Made by a program: the position numbers and the translations under genes. A stretch of 42,999 bases of DNA from Candidatus Bathyarchaeota archaeon. GTDB taxonomy: Archaea > Thermoproteota > Bathyarchaeia > Bathyarchaeales > Bathycorpusculaceae. The stretch covers positions 1 to 42,999 of the forward strand of contig JAOULW010000015.1 of assembly GCA_029881805.1 (NCBI GenBank). Direction: 5' to 3'. Under the pieces are notes generated by a model, which did no database searches, was not told the DNA's origin, and was given only the letters and a program-made list of their open reading frames with translations. Shown here in pieces: positions 1 through 31,354 of the stretch; within the stretch, counting starts at the first letter, position 1; each line of letters begins with the position of its first letter.

Positions 1-19
1 AAAATCCTGAACTTTGTGC

Positions 20-67
20 TGACGATTCGCACCTGCCCACACTGGAGATGTCACCAGCAACTCCTCC
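20..67 (-). repeat. Hairpin element copy A with T-arm-like flank
   Basis: This is one copy of the dispersed element whose plus-strand core reads CTGGAGATGTCACC followed by AGCAACTCC. Read on the minus strand it can form a GGAG/CTCC stem with a TTGC-containing loop. A tRNA T-arm-like sequence (GACGATTCGCACC on the plus strand) lies 8 nt away, as in copies B, F, G and H. It lies about 145 nt beyond the stop of the broken C45 gene, on that gene's strand. Confidence 0.55.
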
Positions 68-212
68 ATTTTTTCCGTACAGAGTGATTTCAAGCCTTGC
101 ATTTATTGCAAGAGTGTTTTCCTCTGTAGACAGCAGCTAACGACTGCGCACTAAGGAGCAGTGTTAAAACGAGAAGTAATGGAAACTATTGAATTTTCCA
201 CGGACAAGAATC

Positions 213-1536: not shown

Positions 1537-1584
1537 ATTGGGACTCGAACCCACTCACAGTGGAGATACTCCCCAGGGTCTCTC
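1537..1584 (-). repeat. Hairpin element copy B with T-arm-like flank
   Basis: The plus strand reads GGGACTCGAACCC (a tRNA T-arm-like sequence) then CACAGTGGAGATACTCCCC. It begins 26 nt after the stop codon of the minus-strand iron-sulfur gene at 1611. The remainder of a tRNA is not present, so this is not an intact tRNA gene. Confidence 0.6.
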
Positions 1585-1610
1585 CTTTTCTTGGCTTGAA
1601 CGACGAAGCT

Positions 1611-2546: not shown

Positions 2547-2912
2547 TTTCTTTCTGATTGGCTAAATGCATTCATCACCTAGCCATTAGCTTCCAGGAGC
2601 CTGTTTATTAATGTGCTCATGCACATGGAAGAATTTTAATTCTTACACTGTGGAGATATCTCCCGAAGTCCCAACTATTAGTCGGCTTTTCGTCTTTTTT
2701 GATATACCATATTAGACAAAGATAAGCTCATTAATAAAAGTTTATTCTTCAACAGTGTGGACACTTTTGTTTTTTGCGTCCCTAATGTGTGTGTTGCGTT
2801 TTTTGATATAGAAAAGTTATTCATAAGCTTAAAGTGCATCTATGGTATAAGATTTTATTGAATATGAAGGGGAAATGGAGGTGACATACATACGAAGATA
2901 ACTCCTTCTGGA
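2547..2912. other. Intergenic region with hairpin copy C and AT-rich promoter DNA
   Basis: No convincing gene lies here. It contains hairpin copy C, two similar stretches TTTTTTGATATA (near 2696 and 2798), and CAGTGTGGACAC near 2755, which resembles part of the hairpin element. A GGAGGTGA ribosome binding site for the next gene lies at 2877-2884. The two genes on either side diverge, so both promoters must be here. Confidence 0.5.
2644..2674 (-). repeat. Hairpin element copy C
   Basis: The plus strand reads ACTGTGGAGATATCTCCCG and then AAGTCCC. The core GGAGATATCTCC is a perfect 12-nt palindrome. Unlike copies A, B, G and H, no T-arm-like sequence lies beside it, and it is upstream rather than downstream of the nearest minus-strand gene. 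Confidence 0.55.
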
Positions 2913-3824
2913 TTGCTGAATATTATGTTGATGGCTATGCTTGTGGCTGCATTGTTTTTTGTTATTGTGAAAAGTCCGCCGCCTTATGACCCGTGGGCTG
3001 ACATGAACGATGATGGGTTCATAGACGTTAAAGACATTCTTCATGTGGCTTTGCAGTATGGAGCGAGTGGAACCCCAATAACTAAGGCTAGTATAGCTTT
3101 TGATAGTGATTGGATTGACATAACAGACAAGTGTGGACAGGTTTTCTCGGTGGTGCATAATTTGAGCAGTGTGGACATTATTGTGGACATAACGGGAAAA
3201 ACAACACTGGATGGTGGACCGCATCAGCGATATCTCGGCTTATCAGACTACATCCCAGGATGGCAGAGAACCTATGGCGGAACAAACAATGATTATGGGT
3301 ATTCTGTGGTGCAGACTGTTGACGGCGGATATGCATTAGCAGGCTCCACTAATTCTTTTGGCGCTGGCTTCTATGATTGCTGTTTAGTTAAGACGGATAT
3401 GAGCGGCATTCTACAGTGGAACAAGACCTATGGAGGAACAAACTCTGATATGGCATTTTCTGTGGTGCAGACTGTTGACGGCGGCTACGCACTAGCAGGT
3501 GACACTAATTCTTTTGGCGCTGGCTCCTATGATTGTTATTTGGTGAAGACGGATGCGGCTGGTAATCTACAGTGGAACAAGACTTACGGCGGAACAAACC
3601 CTGATGCAGTATCTTCTGCAGTTCAGACGAGTGACGGCAGATACACTCTAGCAGGCTCCACTAATTCTTTTGGTGCTGGTTCAGGCGATTTTTATTTGGT
3701 TAAGACTAATGTTGAGAATGGTTTATGCTGGTCGTCCTCCACGCTAGACAGCATAGAACTATACAGAGGCATAACAGACCAATACTGGAACTACGTGCGA
3801 GTGCGCATATGGACAATCAAATAA
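2913..3824 (+). CDS. Secreted protein with dockerin-like EF motif and about three propeller-type repeats
   Basis: An N-terminal hydrophobic segment (IMLMAMLVAALFFVIV) looks like a signal peptide or anchor. Next comes a calcium-binding dockerin-like loop, DMNDDGFIDVKDI, near residues 30-42. From about residue 115 there are three repeats of about 50 residues, each containing TYGGTN, a VVQTVDGGYALAG-type strand and a YLVKTD-type end. They resemble bacterial and archaeal repeat proteins predicted to form beta-propellers. The final 35 residues break the pattern, so the protein may be truncated. The start is odd. The strong site GGAGGTGA (2877-2884) is followed 7 nt later by an in-frame ACG (2892) where ATG is expected, and the first ordinary start is TTG at 2913. 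Cell-surface location is inferred; the ligand is unknown. Confidence 0.65.
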   Translation: MLNIMLMAMLVAALFFVIVKSPPPYDPWADMNDDGFIDVKDILHVALQYGASGTPITKASIAFDSDWIDITDKCGQVFSVVHNLSSVDIIVDITGKTTLDGGPHQRYLGLSDYIPGWQRTYGGTNNDYGYSVVQTVDGGYALAGSTNSFGAGFYDCCLVKTDMSGILQWNKTYGGTNSDMAFSVVQTVDGGYALAGDTNSFGAGSYDCYLVKTDAAGNLQWNKTYGGTNPDAVSSAVQTSDGRYTLAGSTNSFGAGSGDFYLVKTNVENGLCWSSSTLDSIELYRGITDQYWNYVRVRIWTIK

Positions 3825-3922
3825 AACAAACACACAATCCTCTTTTTCCTATTATAACCACTTTTCAGTCTGTCAAAAAAATATGATGACCTATGGCAAA
3901 CGGCTTGCTCGCATCGATGGGA

Positions 3923-3941
3923 GTTTGGCGAAAAGCCAAAC
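3923..3941. terminator. Perfect 7-bp hairpin between convergent genes
   Basis: GTTTGGC, a GAAAA loop and GCCAAAC form a perfect inverted repeat between the stop codons of two converging genes. It could stop transcripts from either side or protect their 3' ends. No T-tract follows, so the terminator role is weak. Confidence 0.3.
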
Positions 3942-3999
3942 GATTCAGCAGGTGTTCTCCCCAGTTATGGTTCAATCATCGAAAATTTCAGTTTCTGCT

Positions 4000-4683
4000 C
4001 TAGAAACCTACGTCGTATATATTTTCTGGATAGATGACGTGACCTCCATCGCACCAGATGCCCGTAGCAGCTATCATAACTTTCCCCGTATATAGGTTCA
4101 AAATGACTGTTATTCCAAAATCCATTGGGGTAACGAATAAAATCAAGAATGGATAATTGACAAAAAAGTCTTCTTCTCTCGGCCAAACCACGTAATGATT
4201 TGGACTTTGGTTCATAAGGTCATCTATTGTCCTTGTTCCATTTTCGACAGATGTCATATTGAAACTATGAGACTGCTCATAGGATTTTATGAATGTCAAA
4301 TTTTCATAGTCAAGCCTCAGAACTAACTCATGGATAAGCCCTTCGCTACTGGGTTCCAAAGTTGATGCAACAATAAACCATTCCCCTCTCCATCCATATC
4401 CATGAGGGCAGACCAGCACCGAATAGTTACCGTTCCTAGAAAATTCAGCCATCACATCCAAATTTTTTGTTTTGTTCCACACTTCCCAAAAAGTCTCATT
4501 ACTAAACCAATCGTTAAAATTAAAGAAATAAATTTCAGACGGCTCCAGCCCGTGCGTCTCTTCACTTCTTATCATCGTCCAGTAGAAAATTGGCGTAAGA
4601 ACCAGCAAAACAAGACAAATGCAAATAATAGTCACTCTAGGTTTTCTAGTAAGCCAACTCAAAAATTGCATATCTCTTCTCAT
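4000..4683 (-). CDS. Membrane-anchored extracytoplasmic protein of unknown function
   Basis: This 227-residue protein begins with a basic stretch (MRRDMQFLSWLTRKPR), then one transmembrane segment (VTIICICLVLLVLTPIFYW, about residues 17-35). The rest is probably outside the cell. It contains several Asn-X-Ser/Thr sequons (NET, NKT, NYS, NLT, NMT, NGT), which suggests a glycosylated surface protein. The C-terminal third has a hydrophobic strand-rich region (NYPFLILFVTPMDFGITVILNLY). I do not recognise the family. It faces the dockerin-like gene and ends about 175 nt from it, so the two are not an operon. Confidence 0.6.
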   Translation of the reverse strand: MRRDMQFLSWLTRKPRVTIICICLVLLVLTPIFYWTMIRSEETHGLEPSEIYFFNFNDWFSNETFWEVWNKTKNLDVMAEFSRNGNYSVLVCPHGYGWRGEWFIVASTLEPSSEGLIHELVLRLDYENLTFIKSYEQSHSFNMTSVENGTRTIDDLMNQSPNHYVVWPREEDFFVNYPFLILFVTPMDFGITVILNLYTGKVMIAATGIWCDGGHVIYPENIYDVGF

Positions 4684-5203
4684 ATACTAGTTCTGAGATT
4701 CTGCCTTTTAATTCTACAGTTTAGAACAGCAACTTTCGCAAACGTAGACACATCAACTATGGGAGGAAGCCAATGAACGATCCTTTGAGTTAAGAATTAA
4801 CAAATCTCATGGCTGGTCGCAAGGAAGATATGAGTTCAGGGAGACTTAAGGGCTGGATGGGTAAGAAACCTATGCAATTGGTGTCTTACCCGAGCGAATC
4901 GAGGCAATGAGAATTAGAAGTCTACAGGGAGCTTCATTGAGAGCTTTAGACCTATCATACAAGGCTTTTAGTTCTGCATTGGGTAACTTTGGGTTGTCTT
5001 TACAGTGCACACAAAAATCCCCTTATATCGACTTGATATATATAGTAAAGTAATTCAAACCAATTCTGCTTTGTGCCTGCATAAGTCAGAGGGGTTATTT
5101 TTGAGGAGATTGTGGAAAAACAAGTTGAAAAGTTTGTTTGTTCTGGATGTTTTTGAAGGGTTAAATAGAGCTCAAATACAACCTTTCACGGGGGTAAAAT
5201 ACC
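4684..5203. other. Long intergenic region, no secure gene
   Basis: The only coding hints are a 33-codon frame at 4809-4910 (starting MAGRKEDMSSGR), with no ribosome binding site, and a longer frame at 5005-5220 whose composition does not look like a protein. A TATA-like GATATATATAG near 5034 and TTAAATAG at 5161 may serve the small gene at 5204. No recognised repeat lies here. Confidence 0.4.
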
Positions 5204-5350
5204 ATGAAAATCCGACTTAGAATAAGATTTCGAGGTAAGCGTGGTTACGATATCAGCAGTGTTCCTCTCAAGAGTTTAGAGAGAGCAAACAAATATAGAA
5301 AGAAGCGGTGGGAGCTGAAAGAGGGTTGGTTGGTTCTGGAAGCTTTCTAG
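5204..5350 (+). CDS. Small basic protein, 48 residues, convergent to the recombinase gene
   Basis: The frame reads MKIRLRIRFRGKRGYDISSV and continues to KKRWELKEGWLVLEAF, 48 residues with a strongly basic first half and a beta-like pattern. A TATA-like TTAAATAG at 5161 lies 43 nt upstream and a GGGGG stretch 10-14 nt upstream. It ends 11 nt before the stop of the convergent tyrosine recombinase gene. Small basic proteins next to integrases can be recombination directionality factors, but nothing in this sequence proves that here. I do not recognise the family, and it could be a chance frame. Confidence 0.45.
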   Translation: MKIRLRIRFRGKRGYDISSVPLKSLERANKYRKKRWELKEGWLVLEAF

Positions 5351-5361
5351 TCTAAGCTTTT

Positions 5362-6654
5362 CTATTTGGTTTGTTGTTCTTGGTCTTTCGTAAGCCGTTC
5401 TAGACCGAGATCAAGAGCCTTTCTAATCGTCTTTGCAAGTTCAATGTTTATTCTGTCTGAGATTTCTGCAGCTTTCATACCTTCCTCTTCGGTTAGTTTT
5501 TCTTCAGGAAGCTGAGACGCCCATGCAGAGAGGTAGAGTCTTAATGCATCATTTTGGTTCTTCAAGCTCTCGACAAACTTCATCAATGGTTGCAGCTTTT
5601 CAATTTCCTTCTTTGTTTTGACATTTTCTTCAGAGACTGTTTCAGTTATCATTCTTTGCTGAGTCATTTCCTCTTGAAGCTTGACTATGGCTTTTTTCAG
5701 AGTCTCAATCTTCTCGACCTCTGCTTTTGGCTGCTCCTTAATCGTGAAGAATCTCTTGAGTTGGCTGAATTTCTCCTTGAGTTTGACAGTTGTCAGGTAA
5801 GTGTCGTCGCTTTCTGCTATGGCTTTTCCACACAGCTTCTTTCCTGCTGTCAAACCGATTCCAGAGTCTATGGCTGCAGATAGAAACATCTTCCTGAAAC
5901 AGTGAAACGTCAGGTTCTTTCCATTCAGGTTAATTTTTGCGTTTTCCGCTAGCCTCTGCAAAAGTCGGTTTAGCCATTCGTCTGAAATATGACTAGCGCT
6001 ATTTGAAGGAAAAAGATAGGGGTTGCCGTTCTTTTTCTCTAGGGTCGGTAGATAGGCTTTCAAAAGGTCTACGGTTTCATGGCTTAGGAAACAATGCGCT
6101 ATCACATCTTCCTTGCTTGTCATCAAGTCAAAAGAAATTGGCGGTTCTTGGTCTAGTGGAGGCAAATCGTCTTTTTTGATTTTTATGAAATCGCCTATTC
6201 TTAACCCTAAGTCTGTAGCCATGCTTAGAATCACTCTTTCCCTCAAGTCTGCAACTTTAAACATAGCTCTTATATGCTCGATGTTTAGTGGAAAGTTCTT
6301 GGTTGTTTTGACTGTCTTGGCTATTCTGCTTCCTGCTCTGAATCTTATCGGCATTTCATAAAACCTGAAAAGCTGCCTTATTCCCAAAGTCCAGTTTCTT
6401 GCAGTGTTGATACTGTAGCTTTCTAGCAGATAGCTGTGAAACTTCTCGATTTCCTTCTCAAATCTTGCAGCTCTATTTCTATAGTCAATGAGGTTCTCTC
6501 CTGCTCTCTGTGTTAGATCATCTTTTCTCATTTCCAGAACCTCTTCTGCGCTCTTGCCAAACCATTCACAGAACTTCTTCAAACCATGCCTATACTCTTT
6601 CTTAGTGTGAGGATTCGATACCGAATCTAAGAATTGCTGAACACTCATTTCCAT
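5362..6654 (-). CDS. Tyrosine recombinase/integrase with C-terminal coiled coil
   Basis: This 430-residue site-specific recombinase cuts and rejoins DNA through a covalent 3'-phosphotyrosine. Residues 1-110 form an SAM-like core-binding domain (YRHGLKKFCEWF, NTARNWTLGIRQLFRFY). The catalytic domain shows R152 (DLGLRIGDF), K181 (TSKED), H251-x-x-R254 (HCFRKMF) and the nucleophile Y286 (SDDTYLTTVKLKEKF), so it looks active. Residues 310-370 form a long coiled coil (EKIETLKKAIVKLQEEM), followed by a helical tail. The last histidine or tryptophan of the usual set appears replaced near K277. A perfect AGGAGGTG ribosome binding site (6661-6668) lies 6 nt before the ATG, with a TATA-like element behind it. 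It is not interrupted by an attachment site, unlike SSV-type integrases. It may act on the tRNA-end repeats in this window. Confidence 0.9.
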   Translation of the reverse strand: MEMSVQQFLDSVSNPHTKKEYRHGLKKFCEWFGKSAEEVLEMRKDDLTQRAGENLIDYRNRAARFEKEIEKFHSYLLESYSINTARNWTLGIRQLFRFYEMPIRFRAGSRIAKTVKTTKNFPLNIEHIRAMFKVADLRERVILSMATDLGLRIGDFIKIKKDDLPPLDQEPPISFDLMTSKEDVIAHCFLSHETVDLLKAYLPTLEKKNGNPYLFPSNSASHISDEWLNRLLQRLAENAKINLNGKNLTFHCFRKMFLSAAIDSGIGLTAGKKLCGKAIAESDDTYLTTVKLKEKFSQLKRFFTIKEQPKAEVEKIETLKKAIVKLQEEMTQQRMITETVSEENVKTKKEIEKLQPLMKFVESLKNQNDALRLYLSAWASQLPEEKLTEEEGMKAAEISDRINIELAKTIRKALDLGLERLTKDQEQQTK

Positions 6655-6660
6655 TCTTCC

Positions 6661-6692
6661 ACACCTCCTTTCGTTCAGTGTGGTATATCAAA
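6661..6692 (-). promoter_or_regulatory. Recombinase promoter with a CAGTGTGG-ATATC motif
   Basis: Read on the plus strand, CACCTCCT (ribosome binding site complement) is followed by CAGTGTGGTATATCAAAC at 6675-6692. The ATATC part doubles as the TATA region of the recombinase. CAGTGTGG next to ATATC resembles the left part of the dispersed hairpin element (CACTGTGGAGATATC in copy C). This suggests, but does not prove, that one protein binds both. Confidence 0.45.
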
Positions 6693-6895
6693 CTTTCCGA
6701 AAAACCAACTAATCGTAAGGTCTACTCCCGCAAACCCTATTTTTCGTGTAAAGCGGAGCCATTTGACTGGAGAATAGTAGATGCATGTTTGAAAAGTGGT
6801 CATTACTTCTTCATCGAGCCGCAAGAATTTTGTGTTGTCCATTCCGAAAGGCAAATATAAGAATCATTACGAGACTCGGAATTGAGGACCTTAGA

Positions 6896-7075
6896 ATGAA
6901 GGAATATGAAATCCTCTACGATACTGGTAGCTGTCGGAAACTTGTCGCTGAGATCAATCGCATGGCAAAGGAAGGATGGCAAGCAAAATCGATAGGCGGT
7001 TTAGGTGCTCCGACTGGCATTTCTGCGGTTTACGTGTTGATGGAGCGGGAAGTCACTAGGTCTACAAGAACGTAG
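6896..7075 (+). CDS. DUF4177-like small protein
   Basis: This 59-residue protein begins MKEYEILYDTGSCRKLVAEI and contains EGWQAKSIGGLG and VYVLMEREV. The strand-helix-GW-strand-strand layout resembles DUF4177 and related small alpha/beta proteins of unknown function. The start at 6896 is chosen over a longer frame from 6785. GAGG lies 8 nt upstream and a TATA-like AAATATAAG lies about 40 nt upstream, while the extra N-terminal residues look non-coding. It stands between the divergent recombinase gene and hairpin copy E. Confidence 0.6.
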   Translation: MKEYEILYDTGSCRKLVAEINRMAKEGWQAKSIGGLGAPTGISAVYVLMEREVTRSTRT

Positions 7076-7080
7076 TCCTG

Positions 7081-7110
7081 TCTGCAATGGAGATATCACC
7101 CAATCTCCCC
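7081..7110 (-). repeat. Hairpin element copy E
   Basis: The plus strand reads CAATGGAGATATCACCCAAT and then CTCCCC. On the minus strand GGAG and CTCC can pair around a GGTGATAT-containing loop. It begins 16 nt after the stop of the minus-strand DUF5700 gene, and ends 5 nt beyond the plus-strand gene at 6896, so it lies between two converging stops. Confidence 0.55.
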
Positions 7111-7125
7111 CTATTTTCAACTCAA

Positions 7126-8659: not shown

Positions 8660-8725
8660 TCTCTGTTTGCCCTTTCAATACCTGTAGCCGCATTTAAAGG
8701 ATTTTCATGTCTGTATGCGTCTAGA

Positions 8726-8773
8726 GTTGGGTTTGAGCCTTCCCCGTTCTGGTGATATCACCAGCAAGTTCCC
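8726..8773 (-). repeat. Hairpin element copy F with T-arm-like flank
   Basis: The core CTGGTGATATCACCAG is a perfect 16-nt palindrome, followed by CAAGTTCCC. To its left GGGTTTGAGCC resembles a degenerate tRNA T-arm, placed as in copies A, B and G. It lies between divergent genes, so it is not 3' to a gene, unlike most copies. Confidence 0.5.
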
Positions 8774-8802
8774 TGAGCACAAGCTCCTCTTTAATCGCAA
8801 AA

Positions 8803-9461: not shown

Positions 9462-10211
9462 ATGATCGAGGAAACAATTCTACTTGGTGCCGTGGCCAGT
9501 CTAGCCGCTGGCTTAGCCACTGGCGCCGGAGCTTTGCCAGTGCTGTTTACAAAGAAAGTTTCAGATAGGTTGTTGGATGTCATGCTTGGGTTTTCGGCTG
9601 GTGTTATGCTGGCAGCTACTTCATTTAGTTTGATCGTGCCAGCTATTGATCTGAGCGGTCCTTGGGTTGCTGTTTTTGGAATTGTTCTAGGAGCTTTTGC
9701 GTTACATTTGATTGACCGCTTTATTCCTCACTTTCATCCAGCGTTAGGTGCAGAAGGACCTTCTTCGAGGTTATCGAAAGTTTGGCTGTTTGTCATCGCC
9801 ATAACTATTCACAACTTTCCTGAAGGGTTGGCCGTTGGAGTCAGCTTCGGCAGCGGCGACGTGGCGGCAGGAACTGTCGTTGCCATGGCTATCGGGCTTC
9901 AGAACATGCCTGAAGGACTTGCAGTCGCGCTGCCCTTGTTAAGGGAAGGATATAGCAGAAGAAGATCTTTATGGTATGGGACTTTGACCGGATTGGTTGA
10001 GCCTGTTGGGGGTTTGTTGGGTGTTGCCTTGGTCTCAATTTTTCATCCGATTCTGCCTTGGGCACTGGCTTTTGCAGCAGGCGCCATGCTTTTCGTCGTG
10101 AGTGATGAGATGATTCCTGAAAGCCACAGGAAAGGTTTTGAGAGAGAAGCGACTTTTGGGTTAATAGTTGGATTTGTGATCATGATGCTGCTAGACTGTT
10201 TATTTGGTTGA
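9462..10211 (+). CDS. ZIP family divalent metal transporter
   Basis: This 249-residue protein has about eight membrane segments, starting at residue 5. The ZIP signature is in TM4, HNFPEGLAVGVSFG (near residues 117-130), and in TM5, QNMPEGLAVALP, with EPVGG in the next segment. The histidines, glutamates and asparagines in these form the metal site. A short histidine-containing loop (IPHFHPALG) precedes TM4. It resembles ZupT-type importers of zinc, iron or manganese; the exact metal cannot be told. It sits 62 nt after the DpsL gene on the same strand, suggesting supply or balance of iron for the ferritin. Confidence 0.85.
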   Translation: MIEETILLGAVASLAAGLATGAGALPVLFTKKVSDRLLDVMLGFSAGVMLAATSFSLIVPAIDLSGPWVAVFGIVLGAFALHLIDRFIPHFHPALGAEGPSSRLSKVWLFVIAITIHNFPEGLAVGVSFGSGDVAAGTVVAMAIGLQNMPEGLAVALPLLREGYSRRRSLWYGTLTGLVEPVGGLLGVALVSIFHPILPWALAFAAGAMLFVVSDEMIPESHRKGFEREATFGLIVGFVIMMLLDCLFG

Positions 10212-10512: not shown

Positions 10513-10544
10513 GGCACGCATTAGGATAATAGCTCTGTGTAAGT

Positions 10545-10594
10545 CGGGAGAGATTTGAACCCTATCCACAGTGGAGATATCAACTGCAACTCCC
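10545..10594 (-). repeat. Partial tRNA-Ile 3' end joined to hairpin element copy G
   Basis: CGGGAGAGATTTGAAC at 10545-10560 is identical to 16 nt of the 3' end of tRNA-Ile (16670-16685). It runs into CACAGTGGAGATATCAACTG and CAACTCCC, a hairpin copy. The element begins 5 nt after the stop of the minus-strand propeller gene. The rest of the tRNA is absent, so this is a fragment. Confidence 0.75.
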
Positions 10595-10598
10595 TTCT

Positions 10599-12254
10599 TT
10601 ATATGTGACTTAGGATAGGGGTTCTTCTTCTATGAAAAATGGCTGATATTAGTGTTGCAGCCATGAACAGTGCTAGAATAAGGAAAGATGGAAACTCTGG
10701 TATCACATGATACTGATGCTGGTATCCAAATTCGTCTTCACTGGTGATTGTGTTGCCAACTTTGTCTTCAGCAGTAATTGTGTAGTTTACCCACGTGCAA
10801 TAGTCAAACGCAGGTATAGTGCCGTTCCACGTGTTGCCTTCAAGGTTAGTCATGTTGACGACGTACCATGTTTCGCTATCGGGACTATAATTTAGATTCA
10901 CCTTTTTCACTCCGCTTTCGTTGTCAACAACATTAGCATAAACCATAACCTCATCATCTGGTGTAACAGTGTCGTTGATCGGCTCCTGATACACGTTTTC
11001 TATTAGAGGCGGAGTTGAATCTTCTAACACTTTGAACACATAGAGACTGTCCCAACCAGGCCCTCCCATCGCTATTATGCCACCGTCTCCTGACATAGAA
11101 ATTAGCGGACTGAATTGCATCAAGTCGAATTCGCCTATCATGGCACCATCTGATTTGAAGAATAACGCCTTGTAAGATGAGGCGTTTGTCACGGAAGCAG
11201 CGATTATTCCACCATCATTACTAACAGCCACATCCCATCCTATTGAACCTTCAAACCGGATCCAATCCTCAGTTTGATTACCTCCCGATCGCATGCGAGC
11301 ATCAGTCCAAAAGTGCAAACCGCACGGTCCCGGAAAGCCCATGCCACACAGGATCTCATCGCCGTCAGAGCTCATGTCTAAAGAAAAAAATGGACCATAC
11401 CCAGTCCATGTTGCGTTAGGATCTCCCGACAGACCAGTGGCGTTTGCCCAATAGTGAAGGTAATCATACTCAAAGTTAGATATGGCAGCAACGGAATAAC
11501 CATCGTCAGACACTGCTATGTCTCTTATGGGAAAGCTCAATGAACTTCTGGCATGCCACAGCTTTGGTGGAGAGGTTGCGTTGTGTGCGTCCTTGTAGAA
11601 CGCAACGAACCCTCCTGTTCCAGATGTAGGCGTCCCTCCTGCAGCAACGAACCTACCATCTGGAGACATGTCGACAACGTGAACAAGAGATTCCGGATAG
11701 TCCACCCAAGTAGTAGGCTGGTCAGAACCTGACTTCGTGGTACACCCAGCATAGAACCACACATTTACGTCTGTTCCGACTACTACAACATAATTGCCAT
11801 CATCCGACATGTCTAATGCGCCCCTCTCAATTGCTCCATACATGTATATACTACCCCATGTTGGAGCATTAGAGGCTCCAATTCTTGATCTTGAATTGTT
11901 AAAGTAATATATGCGGCCTTCTTGAGTTCCTACAGCTACGTATTCTCCGTCAGCCGATATCGCAACTGATATAAAATTCACTAGTGGGTTCTCCCACCAT
12001 TTAGGACTTGAACTATTTGCAGCGAAGTAGTATAAACCACTGCCATTCACAACAGCTATGTAATTACCGCCTCGTGATACTGCCACGTCATATACACTCA
12101 TTGAATTGTTCCACAGCATCTCCACACCATATACTTTCGATGTTTCTATATCGCCAGAAGCATTCACCTCAAAAGTGCTGAATCCTAAACATAATAAAGT
12201 CGTCAATAGTAACAAGATCAGAGCAAACACATTCTTGCTTCTCATAAACACCAC
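10599..12254 (-). CDS. Secreted WD40/PQQ-like beta-propeller protein with PEF-type C-terminal anchor
   Basis: This 551-residue protein has a signal peptide (about residues 8-32, FALILLLLTTLLCLGF). It then has repeating blade motifs such as VAVSRGGNYIAVVNG, VAISADGEYVAVGT, LDMSDDGNYVVVVG and VDMSPDGRFVAAGG, each about 50 residues, giving a seven- or eight-bladed propeller to about residue 410. A fibronectin/Ig-like region follows (STPPLIENVYQEPIN onward). The end HVIPEFPSFLILALFMAA plus FHRRR is an IPEFPS motif, a hydrophobic segment and basic residues, matching PEF-CTERM-type archaeosortase substrates. No archaeosortase gene is in the window. Many N-glycosylation sequons are present. The gene stands alone between two tRNA-Ile 3'-end fragments. 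Its function is probably surface binding, but the ligand is unknown. Confidence 0.75.
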   Translation of the reverse strand: MVFMRSKNVFALILLLLTTLLCLGFSTFEVNASGDIETSKVYGVEMLWNNSMSVYDVAVSRGGNYIAVVNGSGLYYFAANSSSPKWWENPLVNFISVAISADGEYVAVGTQEGRIYYFNNSRSRIGASNAPTWGSIYMYGAIERGALDMSDDGNYVVVVGTDVNVWFYAGCTTKSGSDQPTTWVDYPESLVHVVDMSPDGRFVAAGGTPTSGTGGFVAFYKDAHNATSPPKLWHARSSLSFPIRDIAVSDDGYSVAAISNFEYDYLHYWANATGLSGDPNATWTGYGPFFSLDMSSDGDEILCGMGFPGPCGLHFWTDARMRSGGNQTEDWIRFEGSIGWDVAVSNDGGIIAASVTNASSYKALFFKSDGAMIGEFDLMQFSPLISMSGDGGIIAMGGPGWDSLYVFKVLEDSTPPLIENVYQEPINDTVTPDDEVMVYANVVDNESGVKKVNLNYSPDSETWYVVNMTNLEGNTWNGTIPAFDYCTWVNYTITAEDKVGNTITSEDEFGYQHQYHVIPEFPSFLILALFMAATLISAIFHRRRTPILSHI

Positions 12255-12313
12255 TCGTCGAATTTCGCTTCAGTATATCAACTTCAGTTTTTATGGTTTG
12301 TGGAGAATTATAG

Positions 12314-12372
12314 GTGGGCCGGGAGAGATTTGAACCCGGCACATCTGGGTGATATATTCCATTTCTTTCCCC
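12314..12372 (-). repeat. Exact 22-nt copy of tRNA-Ile 3' end, with hairpin-like sequence H
   Basis: Positions 12314-12335 match 16664-16685 without a mismatch: the discriminator and flanking base, the 3' acceptor strand and the T loop of tRNA-Ile. The match stops abruptly on both sides. CCGGCACATCTGGGTGATAT follows, a weak relative of the hairpin element. The size and position fit an attachment site left by integration at the tRNA 3' end. Confidence 0.8.
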
Positions 12373-12518
12373 TGCAAATTCCCATTTTCTTTACATAAAA
12401 TTGCCAATATTATCTGCCAATGCGCGCGCGTACAAAAACGATTATTAGCCACAAAATCCTAGAGTGGGTCCACGTGCTTGTTTGCGAGCCGGATGATTGA
12501 ATAGGGTTGGAGAACTAG

Positions 12519-13349
12519 TCACTTTTTTCGGTAGACCCACACTATCAAAGGTATAGCTATGGCTAGATAAGCAAGGTGGACTAGTACTCTTGCCCACTCA
12601 GCGTTGACTGTGTAGCCGAACATGACGGCAAACACGGAACCCACAACACCTTTGTGGTGAAATGCGCTGTCGCTTGGAATGTTTAGGTTGTATGCTGGTT
12701 GACCAAGCCAGCCCCATGATGCAGAACCAGTGTACTCTACAAGTTCGTGTACTCCATAACCAACTAGCCCCCCCGCCAAAAGCACTAGCAATATACTTGT
12801 GAAATAGAAAAACTTGTGCATGTTGATTCTCATACCCACAACGAACATTGCATAGGCTAGAATGATTGATCCAACAACTCCTAGAAAGGCGCCAACAAAG
12901 GTGCTAGCAGCATCATCTACTAAGAAAGGAGTGAGGAAGAGCACGGTTTCGAGTCCTTCACGGAATGTGACGATGAACGAAAAAGATGTTAGAGCAAGAG
13001 TCGCTCCTCGAGTAACAATATCTTTTACCCTTTGCTCCACTTCGTTTCGAAGCTCCCTGCCTTTGCTAGCCATCCAGTAAATCATGGAGGATATTACAAA
13101 AACTGCAAAGAGGGCAGCGACTCCCTCAAACAACGCTTTGGTCGATCCAGTTAAGCTGCCGTAGAGAAGCCAGACGAAGATTCCGATGACCACACTTGCT
13201 CCCATGGCGACGTAAACTCCGTACCATACGTACTTTGAAAGAAGGCTTCTCCCAGTTCGTTTAAGATAGGCCAGGATTATCGCTGTTATAAGAGCAGCTT
13301 CCAACGCTTCTCTGAAAGCTAACAAGAACTGTCCGATCAACTGGTTCAC
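12519..13349 (-). CDS. FTR1 family high-affinity iron permease
   Basis: This 276-residue protein has about seven membrane segments. It carries the two REXXE motifs of FTR1, REALE (13-17) and REGLE (130-134), which bind and pass iron. It lacks the periplasmic domain of EfeU-type fusions. A GTG at 13349 is the chosen start because family members begin a few residues before the first REXXE helix. A longer frame to 13502 runs through the coding region of the upstream regulator and is unlikely. The gene follows the PadR-TRASH regulator by about 35 nt and shares its strand, so it is probably in the same transcript. Cysteine or histidine exporters are alternatives that the REXXE pair argues against. 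Confidence 0.85.
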   Translation of the reverse strand: MNQLIGQFLLAFREALEAALITAIILAYLKRTGRSLLSKYVWYGVYVAMGASVVIGIFVWLLYGSLTGSTKALFEGVAALFAVFVISSMIYWMASKGRELRNEVEQRVKDIVTRGATLALTSFSFIVTFREGLETVLFLTPFLVDDAASTFVGAFLGVVGSIILAYAMFVVGMRINMHKFFYFTSILLVLLAGGLVGYGVHELVEYTGSASWGWLGQPAYNLNIPSDSAFHHKGVVGSVFAVMFGYTVNAEWARVLVHLAYLAIAIPLIVWVYRKK

Positions 13350-13384
13350 CAGCTTCCATTTCTCAGCATCGTTACTCGCTTTCC

Positions 13385-13822
13385 CTAGGATAGTTCTTCT
13401 TTGTAAGAGTGTGCGCAGTGCACACAGCAGAAGGTCGCTTCCTTTCCATCGATAACTTCGCGATGTCCCCCTTCGTAGACTTTGCATCCACAGTTTGCAC
13501 AAGTCTCAAGACTCGCTTCAATAGCCACTGAGACTAATTTGTCAAATCTCTTAAACAGTCTTGTACAAAGCAGTGTTCCCTCTTCGGTTAATTCAAAGAT
13601 TTTTCTGTTTTTTTCGCCTATGGGTTTATCAGTGTGCATTACCAAGCCCTTCTCCTCAAGTTTTTTTAGAAACGGATAGACAAGGCTTGCGCTAACTTCC
13701 TTTCCTAGGCGCTTTCTGAATCTACTAAGGATGCTATAACCGTGATTTGGACCCTCGTACAAGATGGTTAGTATATAGAAACGCGAAAAGTCTACGATTA
13801 AGTCGTCAAATTCTGACTTCAT
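13385..13822 (-). CDS. PadR-type regulator with C-terminal TRASH metal-sensing domain
   Basis: Residues 1-90 form a PadR/winged-helix domain (ILTILYEGPNHGYSILSRF, SASLVYPFLKKLEEKGLV). A short linker leads to a TRASH-type metal-binding domain with C111-x20-C132-x3-C136 plus extra C108, C113 and C133 (CANCGCKVYEGG and FCCVHCAHSY). TRASH domains bind copper or other soft metals in archaeal regulators and copper proteins. The gene is divergent from the CopA ATPase and upstream of FTR1. It therefore probably senses copper (or iron) and controls both sides through the palindromic 92-nt region between them. The exact metal is an inference. Confidence 0.85.
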   Translation of the reverse strand: MKSEFDDLIVDFSRFYILTILYEGPNHGYSILSRFRKRLGKEVSASLVYPFLKKLEEKGLVMHTDKPIGEKNRKIFELTEEGTLLCTRLFKRFDKLVSVAIEASLETCANCGCKVYEGGHREVIDGKEATFCCVHCAHSYKEELS

Positions 13823-13914
13823 TTTTTATCACTTTTATTGATATATCTTCTAAAGAAATATTTATATATTTCTAGTTTATATATCTTTTGCGGATACATC
13901 TTGGTGAACTACCG
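13823..13914. promoter_or_regulatory. Divergent promoter/operator between regulator and CopA genes
   Basis: The region is AT-rich and contains the inverted repeat AGAAATAT-TTAT-ATATTTCT at 13854-13873, flanked by GATATATC (13840-13847) and TTATATATC (13877-13885). The symmetric centre could be the operator for the PadR-TRASH protein, and the flanking sites can act as TATA boxes for the two directions. GGTGA at 13904-13908 is the ribosome binding site that supports the CopA start at 13915. Confidence 0.55.
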
Positions 13915-16407
13915 ATGACCAACAAGAAAAAGATAATACCTATCAGAGGAATGCATTGTGCCTCGTGTGCCCAGACCATAGAAAAGGCTCTCAAAGAAAC
14001 TCCTGGGATCACGGAGGCTAATGTCAACTTGGCATCCGAAAAAGCTTACGTAACTTACGATTCAAGCATAACTGGCGAAAACGAAGTTATAGCGGCAATC
14101 AACGCCACTGGCTACGAGGCTCGCTTGGAGACTAAAAAGACCATTCTCAAAATCGGAGGGATGACATGCGCGTCTTGCGCCCAAACGATAGAAAAGGTCC
14201 TTAGGAAGATCGAAGGCGTCGTTGAAGCAAACGTGAACCTTGCATCTGAAAAAGCTGTGGTCGTGTACGATCCTCAAACAATAGATTACGAAACCATAAG
14301 AAAGGCCATAGAAGCGACGGGTTATCAAGTGCTTGGCAGAGAGGAAGGTTCTGCCAAATATGAGCAAGCAATAGAGGAAGAGCAAAGAAAATTCAATGAA
14401 GCAAAGATGAGGATGAAGATTTCATGGGCCGTCACCATACCAATAATTGCGTGGATGATACCTGAAATGATCTTCGGAATAGCGTGGCCAAACATGACTT
14501 TGTATACAATCGGAACCATTCTATTAGCCATTCCAGCACTGTTTTGGGCAGGCAAAGAGACTCTTCTGTCTGCAGGAAAGAAAGTAGCCCACGGCAGAGC
14601 CAACATGGATGTGTTAATAGCTTTAGGTACATTAACCGCCTTTATCACTGGACCTGCCACGTTTTTCAGCCCCATTCTAAATTACGCAGGGGTTTCGGCG
14701 ATGATCATGTCATTTCACCTTCTAGGAAGATATATCGAGGCGAAGGCAAAGGGCAGGGCATCTCAAGCCATAAGAAAGTTGCTGGAATTGGAGGCTAAGA
14801 CCGCTCGAATCTTGGTGGATGGCAAGGAAAAGGAGGTACCTGTTGACGAAGTCACTGTGGAGAACATTATGATTATCCGACCAGGGGAAAAAATCCCCAC
14901 TGACGGTGTCGTGATTGAGGGCCAAAGCTCAGTTGATGAGTCGATGGCAACGGGCGAGTCTATGCCTGTGCCGAAAAACGTTGGGGACAAGGTAATAGGA
15001 GCCACAGTAAACCAGCGAGGAATGTTGAAGGTAAGAGCCACTAAAGTGGGACAAGACACCTTTCTGTCCCAAGTCATTAGGCTAGTTGAGGAAGCTCAAG
15101 GGTCGAAGGTTCCCATCCAAGAATTTGCTGACAGAGTAGTTAGCTATTTTGTCCCGGCAGTATTAACCCTATCATTTTCGGCTCTGGTTCTATGGCTTAT
15201 CTTTCCTGACCAAGTCAGCGTGGTCACAGCTTGGGCTCAACAATTCTTGCCTTGGGTCAATCTTAACCTTGGCGTCGTCACTCTTGCCATATCTGCGTTC
15301 ATTTCAAGTCTTGTGATTGCTTGCCCTTGCGCCCTTGGACTGGCAACTCCTACCGCTCTAATGGTTGGAACAGGTATGGGAGCTGAAAAAGGTGTGCTGA
15401 TTCGCCATGGTGCGGCATTACAGACTCTTAAGGAGGTTGACACGATTGTCTTTGACAAAACGGGGACCATCACAAAGGGTAAACCAGAAGTTACTGATGT
15501 AGTTCCTGTAGAAGGCTATTCGGAAGAAGAGGTTCTACGATTAGCCGCAAGTGTTGAGGTTGGATCAGAGCATCCCCTTGGAGAAGCAATTCTGAGAAGA
15601 GCTAAAGATGGAAATCTAGAGCTTTACAGTGGAGAAGCTTTCGAGGCTATAACGGGGAGAGGAGTGAAAGCGAAAATCAGTCTTTCTTCCCCAAAACTAG
15701 TTCTGGTTGGAAACAGAAAGCTGATGAAAGAACAAAAAGTGGATTATAAGCCCTTAGAAAATGTTTTGGAACGTTTCGAGCGGGAAGCCAAGACGGCCAT
15801 GCTTCTTGCCGCAGAGGGAAAAATCGCGGGAGTGGTTGCTGTTGCAGACACACTTAAAGATGATTCAGTGCAAGCTATAAGAGAACTCGAAGAGATGGGA
15901 ATCAAAACGACTATGCTCACGGGAGACAATGAACTCACTGCAAAGGCCATCGCCCAAAAAGTCGGGATATCCAGGGTTTTGGCTGAAGTCCTCCCAGACC
16001 AAAAGGTGAAGGAAATTCAGAGACTACAGGAAAATGGGGAAACAGTTGCTATGGTCGGCGATGGCATAAATGACGCGCCGGCTTTGACAGCAGCAAATGT
16101 TGGAGTTGCCATAGGAACTGGGACAGACATTGCCATTGAATCTGCTGACGTAACATTAGTTAGGGGAAAATTGTCTGGTGTAGTCACCGCTGTAAAGCTC
16201 TCACGAGCTACGTTTAGAAAAATCAAGCAAAACCTTTTCTGGGCCTTCTTTTACAATGCCGCTGCCATACCATTGGCCATGTTAGGCTTGGCTCACCCAG
16301 CTTTGGCGGAAATTGCGATGGCAACAAGTTCAGTCAGTGTAGTAACAAACGCAAATCTGCTTAGAAGGGCTAAAATTCTCCTTTCATCCCAAAACACGCG
16401 GAGGTGA
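13915..16407 (+). CDS. copA: CopA-type Cu(I)-transporting P1B ATPase
   Basis: This 830-residue copper-exporting P-type ATPase has two N-terminal heavy-metal domains, with GMHCASC at about residues 12-18 and GMTCASC at about 82-88. Eight membrane segments include the ion-binding CPC near 469-471 ([13 protein letters not shown]). The phosphorylation motif DKTGT starts near D514. Also present are a P1B HP motif (SEHPLGEAI), TGD (MLTGDNE) and GDGINDAP near 715. Motif set and CPC type indicate Cu(I) or Ag(I). The start at 13915 is favoured by GGTGA 6 nt upstream; a TTG nine codons earlier is possible. The YHS gene starts 6 nt after its stop, and the regulator is divergent, completing a copper-resistance set. 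Confidence 0.95.
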
Positions 16408-16413
16408 GAGTTC

Positions 16414-16551
16414 ATGGTGAAAGATCCGGTTTGCGAAATGGAAGTGGATGAGAAAACAGCGAAACACAAGGCAGAACATATGGGAAAAACCTACTATTTC
16501 TGTGAACTTGGTTGCAAAAAGAATTCGAAAAGAACCCCCACAAATAAATGA
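16414..16551 (+). CDS. YHS-domain protein, 3' end probably frameshifted
   Basis: The 45-residue frame starts MVKDPVCEMEVDEKTAKHKA, with GKTYYFCELGCKK further on. This is the YHS domain, a small metal-binding module (C7 and C30/C34) found with copper ATPases. The ribosome binding site GGAGGTGA overlaps the CopA stop codon (16400-16407). After CKK the frame reads NSKRTPTNK, whereas one more A in the run at 16514-16519 would give KEFEKNPHK, the typical YHS ending, so a one-base deletion is likely. It probably still folds, since the cysteines precede the shift. It is expected to serve as a copper chaperone or sensor; that role is inferred. Confidence 0.7.
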   Translation: MVKDPVCEMEVDEKTAKHKAEHMGKTYYFCELGCKKNSKRTPTNK

Positions 16552-16664
16552 GAATGTAATGTAAATAGCGGAAAACAGTTTTCAATGAAGTGAAGGTATG
16601 AAATCTGAACATTCACTTGACCGTAACGAAGAAATGTAGCGTGCGTCCCACACAGAATCCAATG

Positions 16665-16739
16665 TGGGCCGGGAGAGATTTGAACTCTCGACCTTTCGGT
16701 TATCAGCCGAACGCTCCAGCCAAGCTGAGCTACCGGCCC
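16665..16739 (-). tRNA. tRNA-Ile(GAT)
   Basis: The acceptor stem is GGGCCGG/CCGGCCC, with a D arm, an anticodon stem TTCGG/CCGAA around CTGATAA (anticodon GAT), and the T arm GAGAG-TTCAAAT-CTCTC. No CCA is encoded. A TATA-like GAGTTTATAG lies upstream. Its 3' end is duplicated at 12314-12335 and partly at 10545-10560. Confidence 0.95.
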
Positions 16740-29611: not shown

Positions 29612-29646
29612 GAGTGGACCGGGGGGATTAGAACCCAAATGGGTTC
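29612..29646 (-). repeat. tRNA-Ala 3'-end fragment ending in a new hairpin
   Basis: GAGTGGACCGGGGGG at 29612-29626 is identical to tRNA-Ala DNA at 31277-31291 (flank, discriminator and 3' acceptor strand). The T-loop follows as ATTAGAACCC for ATTTGAACCC, with one G fewer. The fragment then runs into GAACCCAAATGGGTTC (29631-29646), a perfect hairpin with a 4-nt loop. It is not an intact tRNA. Confidence 0.65.
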
Positions 29647-29910: not shown

Positions 29911-30396
29911 ATGGGGTGGAAAGAAGGGAAGACCCTTATGGAAAAATCAAATCTAGCTGATTTCGTAGGTTATTGTGGACTATACTGTAACGCCTGTGGA
30001 ATCCGTCAAGGAAAGATCAAAAACGCTGTCGAAAATCTACACAACATCATTGCCTCCTATGGGTTTGACAAGATCATGCCCGAGCTTTCACAATGGGAGC
30101 CACGTTTCAAGCATTACAACGAATTCGAACAGGTTATGAATGGGCTAGTCAAATTATTTGGCGACTGCACAGGTTGCCTCCAAGATGGAGGAGACCCAAA
30201 CTGCAAAGTTAGGCCATGCGCAAAGCAGAAGAATTATCGCACTTGCACAGAATGCGACGAAGCTGGCAACTGTGAGAAACTGAATCCCTATCGCAAATAC
30301 TATGAAGTTGCTCTCAAAAGCATCAAGCAACATGACATCAGGAAATATGCTGAAGAAATGCAGAAAAAGGTTGACAAAGGATATAGCACACCATAA
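29911..30396 (+). CDS. DUF3795 cysteine-rich protein
   Basis: This 161-residue protein has the DUF3795 pattern: YCGLYCNACGIRQGKI near residues 21-36, then CTGCLQDGGDPNCKVRPCAK and TCTECDEAGNCEKL. The cysteines are likely to bind iron-sulfur or zinc. The family is widespread in anaerobic archaea and bacteria and its role is unknown. Two starts are possible: ATG 29911, or ATG 29938, which would begin MEKSNLADFVGYCG and is the better family match. It is bracketed by hairpin copies J1 and J2 and lies inside the interval bounded by the tRNA-Ala ends. Confidence 0.75.
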   Translation: MGWKEGKTLMEKSNLADFVGYCGLYCNACGIRQGKIKNAVENLHNIIASYGFDKIMPELSQWEPRFKHYNEFEQVMNGLVKLFGDCTGCLQDGGDPNCKVRPCAKQKNYRTCTECDEAGNCEKLNPYRKYYEVALKSIKQHDIRKYAEEMQKKVDKGYSTP

Positions 30397-31214: not shown

Positions 31215-31279
31215 GTATCAGAGTGACGTAATCATCTGATTGACTAAAAACGAAAGTTGGACTTGTACCCAAATGGGAG

Positions 31280-31354
31280 TGGACCGGGGGGGATTTGAAC
31301 CCCCGACTTCCGCATTGCGAATGCGGCGTTCATACCAAACTGAACTACCGGCCC
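31280..31354 (-). tRNA. tRNA-Ala(CGC)
   Basis: The acceptor is GGGCCGG/CCGGTCC (one G-T pair), anticodon stem CCGCA/TGCGG around TTCGCAA (anticodon CGC), T arm GGGGG-TTCAAAT-CCCCC, discriminator A. No CCA is encoded. Its 3' end is duplicated imperfectly at 29612-29635. Confidence 0.95.

Follow-up and report, generated by a model that had tools for sequence, protein, structure and literature searches.

Two short stretches to the left of the tRNA-Ile(GAT) gene in the window, which is the whole of one contig (C20; 42,999 nt) from a Candidatus Bathyarchaeota archaeon, are in our estimation (probability roughly 0.85) the displaced 3′ ends of this tRNA, left by two successive site-specific integrations. 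In both, the tRNA-Ile 3′ end breaks off in the T-loop and is followed directly by a conserved motif, termed E in the following (about CAGTGGAGATATCWCCCG), which is probably a recombinase-binding att arm. Each incoming element, presumably in circular form, would bring its own copy of the 3′ end and thereby restore the tRNA gene, while the old 3′ end would be displaced outward and become fused to E. Because new inserts would enter between the tRNA and older inserts, the insert with the propeller gene (10561-12313) would have come first and the one with metal-transport genes (12336-16663) second. Five further E junctions in the same orientation follow to the left and look like older, decayed insertions of the same kind, possibly also of tRNA-Ile origin. 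The features of the row, with E-values for matches to R1, a sequence model of the E junction built from an alignment of 25 sites, are as follows.

24-74, plus strand: leftmost E junction (R1 E-value 9.7e-9)
1539-1592, plus strand: E junction with a T-loop-like end, GACTCGAACCC (R1 E-value 1.1e-7)
2627-2690, plus strand: E junction without recognisable tRNA end, with a recombinase gene in its interval (R1 E-value 3.1e-5)
5362-6654, minus strand: 430-aa tyrosine recombinase (P0001), candidate enzyme (Pfam PF00589, 2.9e-13; PHROG integrase; co-occurrence with E)
7080-7117, plus strand: E junction without recognisable tRNA end (R1 E-value 2.6e-4)
8724-8774, plus strand: E junction with decayed T-loop part; ferritin-like, ZIP and cytochrome b5-like genes in its interval (R1 E-value 4.4e-7; Pfam)
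10545-10560, minus strand: second tRNA-Ile 3′-end fragment, outer acceptor part diverged (exact 16-mer; 10/13 over the tRNA-specific part)
10561-10603, plus strand: E arm of the propeller insert (R1 match 10543-10603, E-value 1.2e-13)
10561-12313: insert 1 (older), a single-gene segment running from the E junction at 10543 to the following tRNA fragment at 12314
10599-12254, minus strand: 551-aa exported propeller-like protein (ORF; weak propeller Pfam matches)
12314-12335, minus strand: 22-nt displaced tRNA-Ile 3′ end, from the acceptor 3′ strand to the T-loop, at the nearest junction (13/13 match to tRNA-Ile over the tRNA-specific part)
12336-12391, plus strand: degenerate E arm of the metal-transport insert (R1 match 12314-12391, E-value 8.4e-9)
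12336-16663: insert 2 (younger), with FTR1 permease, PadR-like regulator with TRASH domain and heavy-metal P-type ATPase (ORFs, Pfam)
16664-16739, minus strand: tRNA-Ile(GAT), intact, which closes the row on the right and is the integration target (ARAGORN and Rfam tRNA model)

The sequence CGGGAGAGATTTGAAC is present exactly at 10545-10560, 12320-12335 and 16670-16685, the third copy being the 3′ part of tRNA-Ile(GAT) on the minus strand; the identity of the first and third, claimed in an earlier sequence-only reading of this DNA, is thus exact. These three are the only copies in the 2,203,294-base genome (three forward, none reverse), all on one strand and within 6.2 kb, and a reversed control pattern occurs nowhere in it. 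Allowing up to two mismatches yields four matches where 0.04 are expected, a number which none of 100 shuffled sequences reaches. The two left copies follow a common plan: the tRNA-Ile 3′ end up to the T-loop (..GATTTGAAC), then E (about CAGTGGAGATATCWCCCGCAA). The 13-nt acceptor/T-stem part of the 10545 copy matches tRNA-Ile at 10 of 13 positions and two tRNA-Gln genes equally well; a T-loop base and the location favour Ile over Gln. A TTGTGGAGAAACT-like motif stands left of some Ile-type ends, but as it is found elsewhere too, nothing is claimed for it.

That the two fragments enclose a single gene was also correctly seen; the 551-aa ORF is the only gene of size in 10561-12313. The case was, however, understated: R1 matches begin at 24, 1539, 2627, 7080, 8724, 10543 and 12314, seven junctions in a row, all on the plus strand and spaced every 1-4.5 kb, the row ending at tRNA-Ile (16664). 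At an E-value below 0.05, R1 found 55 matches in the real DNA of the loci and 0-1 in Markov-shuffled DNA of the same loci, a contrast somewhat flattered by the partial training of R1 on these loci. Going outward, the match to tRNA-Ile drops from 13/13 to 10/13 and is then unrecognisable, which fits ageing in this direction; the five outer junctions are not assignable to tRNA-Ile. Window positions 1-136 overlap the reverse strand of contig C29 (C29:1-135; 136 bp at 99%), which is its probable continuation, and left of the junction at 24 no more E junctions occur in 7.5 kb of C29.

Each interval bounded by E holds one to four genes, encoding, from left to right, an acyltransferase-like protein; a Fer4 protein; two unknown proteins and the tyrosine recombinase; a DUF5700 protein; ferritin-like, ZIP and cytochrome b5-like proteins; the propeller protein; and FTR1, the PadR-type regulator and the heavy-metal ATPase. 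The closest archaeal relatives of the latter (73-80% identity) are in Bathyarchaeota genomes, which makes a Bathyarchaeia host probable. Among ORFs and Pfam matches, an integrase gene is present in 2627-7080, and none in 10561-12313 or 12336-16663. The recombinase segment is flanked by a 54-nt inverted repeat (70%; 2667-2720 and 6670-6723), one arm of which directly follows E at 2650, and a 303-aa ORF in the same interval (2913-3824) contains three tandem 156-nt repeats (3261-3728). A paralogue of ORF 4000-4683 is found beside tRNA-Leu(GAG) elsewhere in the genome (C10:172928-177300, L239), where a further series of E junctions has it in its first interval; related cargo is thus present at two tRNA genes. 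At a second tRNA gene of the window, tRNA-Ala(CGC) (31279-31354, minus strand), a slightly decayed 3′ end of this tRNA (GTGGACCGGGGGGATTAGAACC, 29614-29635) lies 1.65 kb to the left and faces the gene, with one 161-aa ORF between them (29911-30396); this is probably the same kind of event.

Filled and empty sites were compared in a genus other than that of the window, the relatives found including none from the latter; G085 and G073 are congeners. In G085, a 6.7-kb segment with a gene for 2147 aa separates tRNA-Ile from TTCAAATCTCTCCCGGCCCAC, which equals the last 21 bases of the tRNA gene itself and so forms a 21-bp direct repeat. G073 has the exact empty site; there, tRNA-Ile is joined directly to the flank beyond the G085 repeat, with about 95% identity on both sides. 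With this clean counterpart of the strain comparison that had been called for, repeated integration at tRNA-Ile, as first proposed, is the best-supported reading. In G091, about 6.3 kb with two E junctions separates tRNA-Ile from the gene that touches the tRNA in G073, and the far side of this gene is bounded by an Ile-type junction, which is the very serial order put forward earlier. An ancestral position of the propeller gene would have spoken against such a history; the gene is missing at this place from all 20 tRNA-Ile neighbourhoods compared in relatives, and in G034 a 54% homologue is located 12 kb away in opposite orientation. G004 (L040 8400-9950) has about 1.5 kb more than its congener G034 between tRNA-Ile and tRNA-Arg, an insertion with an 11-bp overlap which does not seem to lie at a tRNA end.

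Motif E is not restricted to tRNA-Ile. Two other tRNAs of the same genome, tRNA-Leu(TAA) and tRNA-Phe, have perfect copies of their 3′ ends fused to it, 1.7 kb and 5.1 kb from the respective genes and facing them, and a 23-nt 5′ end of tRNA-Glu is joined to it 2.2 kb from tRNA-Glu; the best tRNA matches (13/13), those to tRNA-Ile, tRNA-Leu(TAA) and tRNA-Phe, lie near their own tRNA. Relatives have E likewise with tRNA-Arg(CCT), with tRNA-Pro(GGG) and with a gene that has a tRNA-Leu-type 3′ end. Where an E junction has a tRNA gene within 15 kb, matches of at least 14 nt number nine; all of them face the parental tRNA and none faces away. At some junctions the tRNA part is a 5′ end, cut in the D-loop. 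R1 matches with E-values up to 1e-5 were found in 113 of 163 genomes of the order, with up to 28 per genome, and with E-values up to 1e-6 in 130 of 257 genomes of the class, about half; most of the genomes used are drafts. Across 85 junctions, tRNA end and E are conserved and the outer flanks are not; on the outer side of the junctions no conserved motif is enriched over shuffles. A search for virus contigs with T-loop plus E found none. A Ile-type tRNA end plus E faces tRNA-Gln(TTG) in G073 (L185 10203-10272), with much of the core in common, possibly reflecting a change of target between tRNAs.

Two types of tyrosine recombinase are linked to E sites, and both are candidate enzymes. The 16 genomes with a strong homologue of the 430-aa P0001 have a median of 12 E copies (range 4-28), the 85 others a median of 1 (Mann-Whitney p=3.6e-9, a value not corrected for phylogeny); in two loci (L370, L374) the start of a P0001-type gene is close to E. 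The other type (472 aa; C22:75436-76851), present in 83 of 101 genomes, has an intact copy just upstream of tRNA-His in the window's own genome; its best homologues in nine other genomes also adjoin tRNA genes, and its C-terminal remnants abut the tRNA at several inserts. When it was tried as the E-specific enzyme, its copy number proved to correlate only weakly with that of E (Spearman 0.30); either type may act on E.

As to the nature of E, the sequence-only reading had a hairpin copy (“G”) joined to the 10545 fragment. The motif is present (GTGGAGATATCAAC at 10571), but the junction at 10543 folds no better than shuffled DNA (z -0.6), nor do three others (z -0.9 to -1.4); E is therefore better taken for a dyad in the DNA or an att motif than for a stable hairpin, and what had been called a hairpin belongs to the attachment junction. 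The idea that E is the coding start of an integrase gene was likewise set aside, since by inspection spacing changes within it break the reading frame. An SSV-type (suicidal) element, in which integration splits an att site lying within the integrase gene, was considered as well; the ends of the integrase remnants are located outside the tRNA end, at a distance of a few tens of bases, and the spacing changes in E keep no frame.

Several observations count against serial integration: the two tRNA-proximal inserts lack an integrase, the 10545 fragment ties with tRNA-Gln, the outer junctions resist assignment, and some relatives have perfect junctions between a tRNA end and E at a great distance from the tRNA gene of origin. 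In G111 (L393), two perfect tRNA-Arg(CCT) ends with E (9780-9841 and 11417-11487) lie 1.6 kb apart and far from the tRNA-Arg(CCT) gene; such junctions, bearing ends of tRNAs located elsewhere (also on C1 of G085), are not explained by simple serial integration. A rival reading is a system resembling integrons, in which a recombinase supplied in trans would insert, remove and reshuffle cassettes that lack an integrase but bear [tRNA end / E] sites, with entry at tRNA genes. Host-type cargo alone in most E-bounded intervals and the tracking of E copy number by the P0001-type recombinase would agree with this, as would a second difference between G085 and G073: a 2.9-kb segment of G073, flanked on both sides by E, is missing from G085, where the join falls inside E. 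This difference could also stem from homologous recombination or deletion. The C-terminal integrase remnants abutting the tRNA at several inserts are at odds with such a system, since they indicate that many inserts may be formerly self-sufficient elements that lost their integrase, and neither attC boxes nor a folding site are present. We regard it as unlikely. The same tentative standing is given to its extension to the whole class, that is, an archaeal gene-cassette system integron-like in function and with unrelated sites, with small integrase-less cassettes, a modular site (one of several possible tRNA ends plus the universal arm E), rows at tRNA genes and a recombinase in trans.

It has also to be considered that the 10545 copy arose from the 12314 copy by duplication, or that both are a dispersed repeat containing a tRNA end by chance, without two integrations. 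The unit of tRNA end and E is in fact a dispersed family, some copies of which are far from the parental tRNA; yet E sequence, cargo and outer flank are not the same at the two junctions, with no common sequence seen beyond fragment and E, the tRNA end varies from copy to copy and fits the neighbouring tRNA, and a relative has an empty tRNA-Ile site, so that this explanation appears very improbable. A chance or convergent T-arm-like sequence might be invoked on the grounds that the T-loop sequence is common to all tRNAs, but the count over the whole genome refutes it, with only three copies in 2.2 Mb, none of them outside a stretch of 6.2 kb, and with no shuffle out of 100 reaching the observed number of matches; it is hardly credible. 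Serial integration at tRNA-Ile is the preferred reading. If true, many tRNA genes of these uncultured archaea would be places where accessory genes enter, among them genes for metal transporters, exported proteins and acetyltransferases, and motif E would be a simple handle to map many small mobile segments which integrase-based island finders discard; moreover, with one arm joined to different tRNAs at two tRNA loops, target change by tRNA-targeting integrases becomes directly testable.

Tandem reuse of one site, targeting of tRNA 3′ ends, rarer targeting of 5′ ends and integrase loss are all described for archaea (PMC8371274, PMC6563490). Tandem tRNA integration is known in archaea, and here it is well supported. 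As in tRNA-targeted tyrosine-integrase islands and their tandem arrays (PMC4383910, PMC8371274), an intact tRNA is accompanied by a displaced fragment of its end, correctly arranged and oriented; the direct repeats are exact, one tRNA site has been used again, and integrase has been lost. A precise empty site exists at tRNA-Ile in another genus (G085 versus G073). Not every insert of the row has an integrase. Islander takes a tRNA plus its fragment as the definition of an island but accepts only those that have an integrase and measure 2 kb or more; in its set of 3919 islands, just 4 tandems comprise three or more (PMC4383910). Here, the tRNA-proximal inserts are without integrase and one is 1.8 kb long. 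A further difference from tRNA-targeted islands is that one arm, E, is joined to more than one tRNA, at ends cut in the T-loop as well as in the D-loop. The cryptic integrated elements of Thaumarchaeota (PMC6563490) are, likewise, archaeal, of unknown kind, mostly at tRNA 3′ ends and bounded by short att repeats (median 17 bp); the portion of that account drawn upon mentions no arm common to different tRNA targets, unlike E. The pTN3-like integrases (PMC8371274) use the 5′ half of tRNA genes, which resembles the junctions here whose tRNA 5′ end breaks off in the D-loop, and the position of the 472-aa integrase immediately before tRNA 5′ ends; E, in contrast, serves 3′ ends too.

Archaeal integrons (PMC9668308) share with the present rows the small gene cassettes in one direction, most without a nearby integrase; they differ in that here attC boxes and a folding site are missing and entry is at a tRNA gene, not at attI beside intI. 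Boxes of the form RYYYAAC..GTTRRRY in this order were found in 3 of 173 E sites (1.7%) versus 0.9% of random windows, and E was rejected as an integron attC on this count and on folding (z -0.6 to -1.4 at four sites). The proteins of the row that were scanned with Pfam gave no match to Cas1, as would mark a casposon. In the literature searched no paper describing arm E was found, which does not show that none exists. Less usual in comparison with these known systems are one att arm common to many tRNAs, its use at both T-loops and D-loops, the small, mostly integrase-less cargo and the high copy number.
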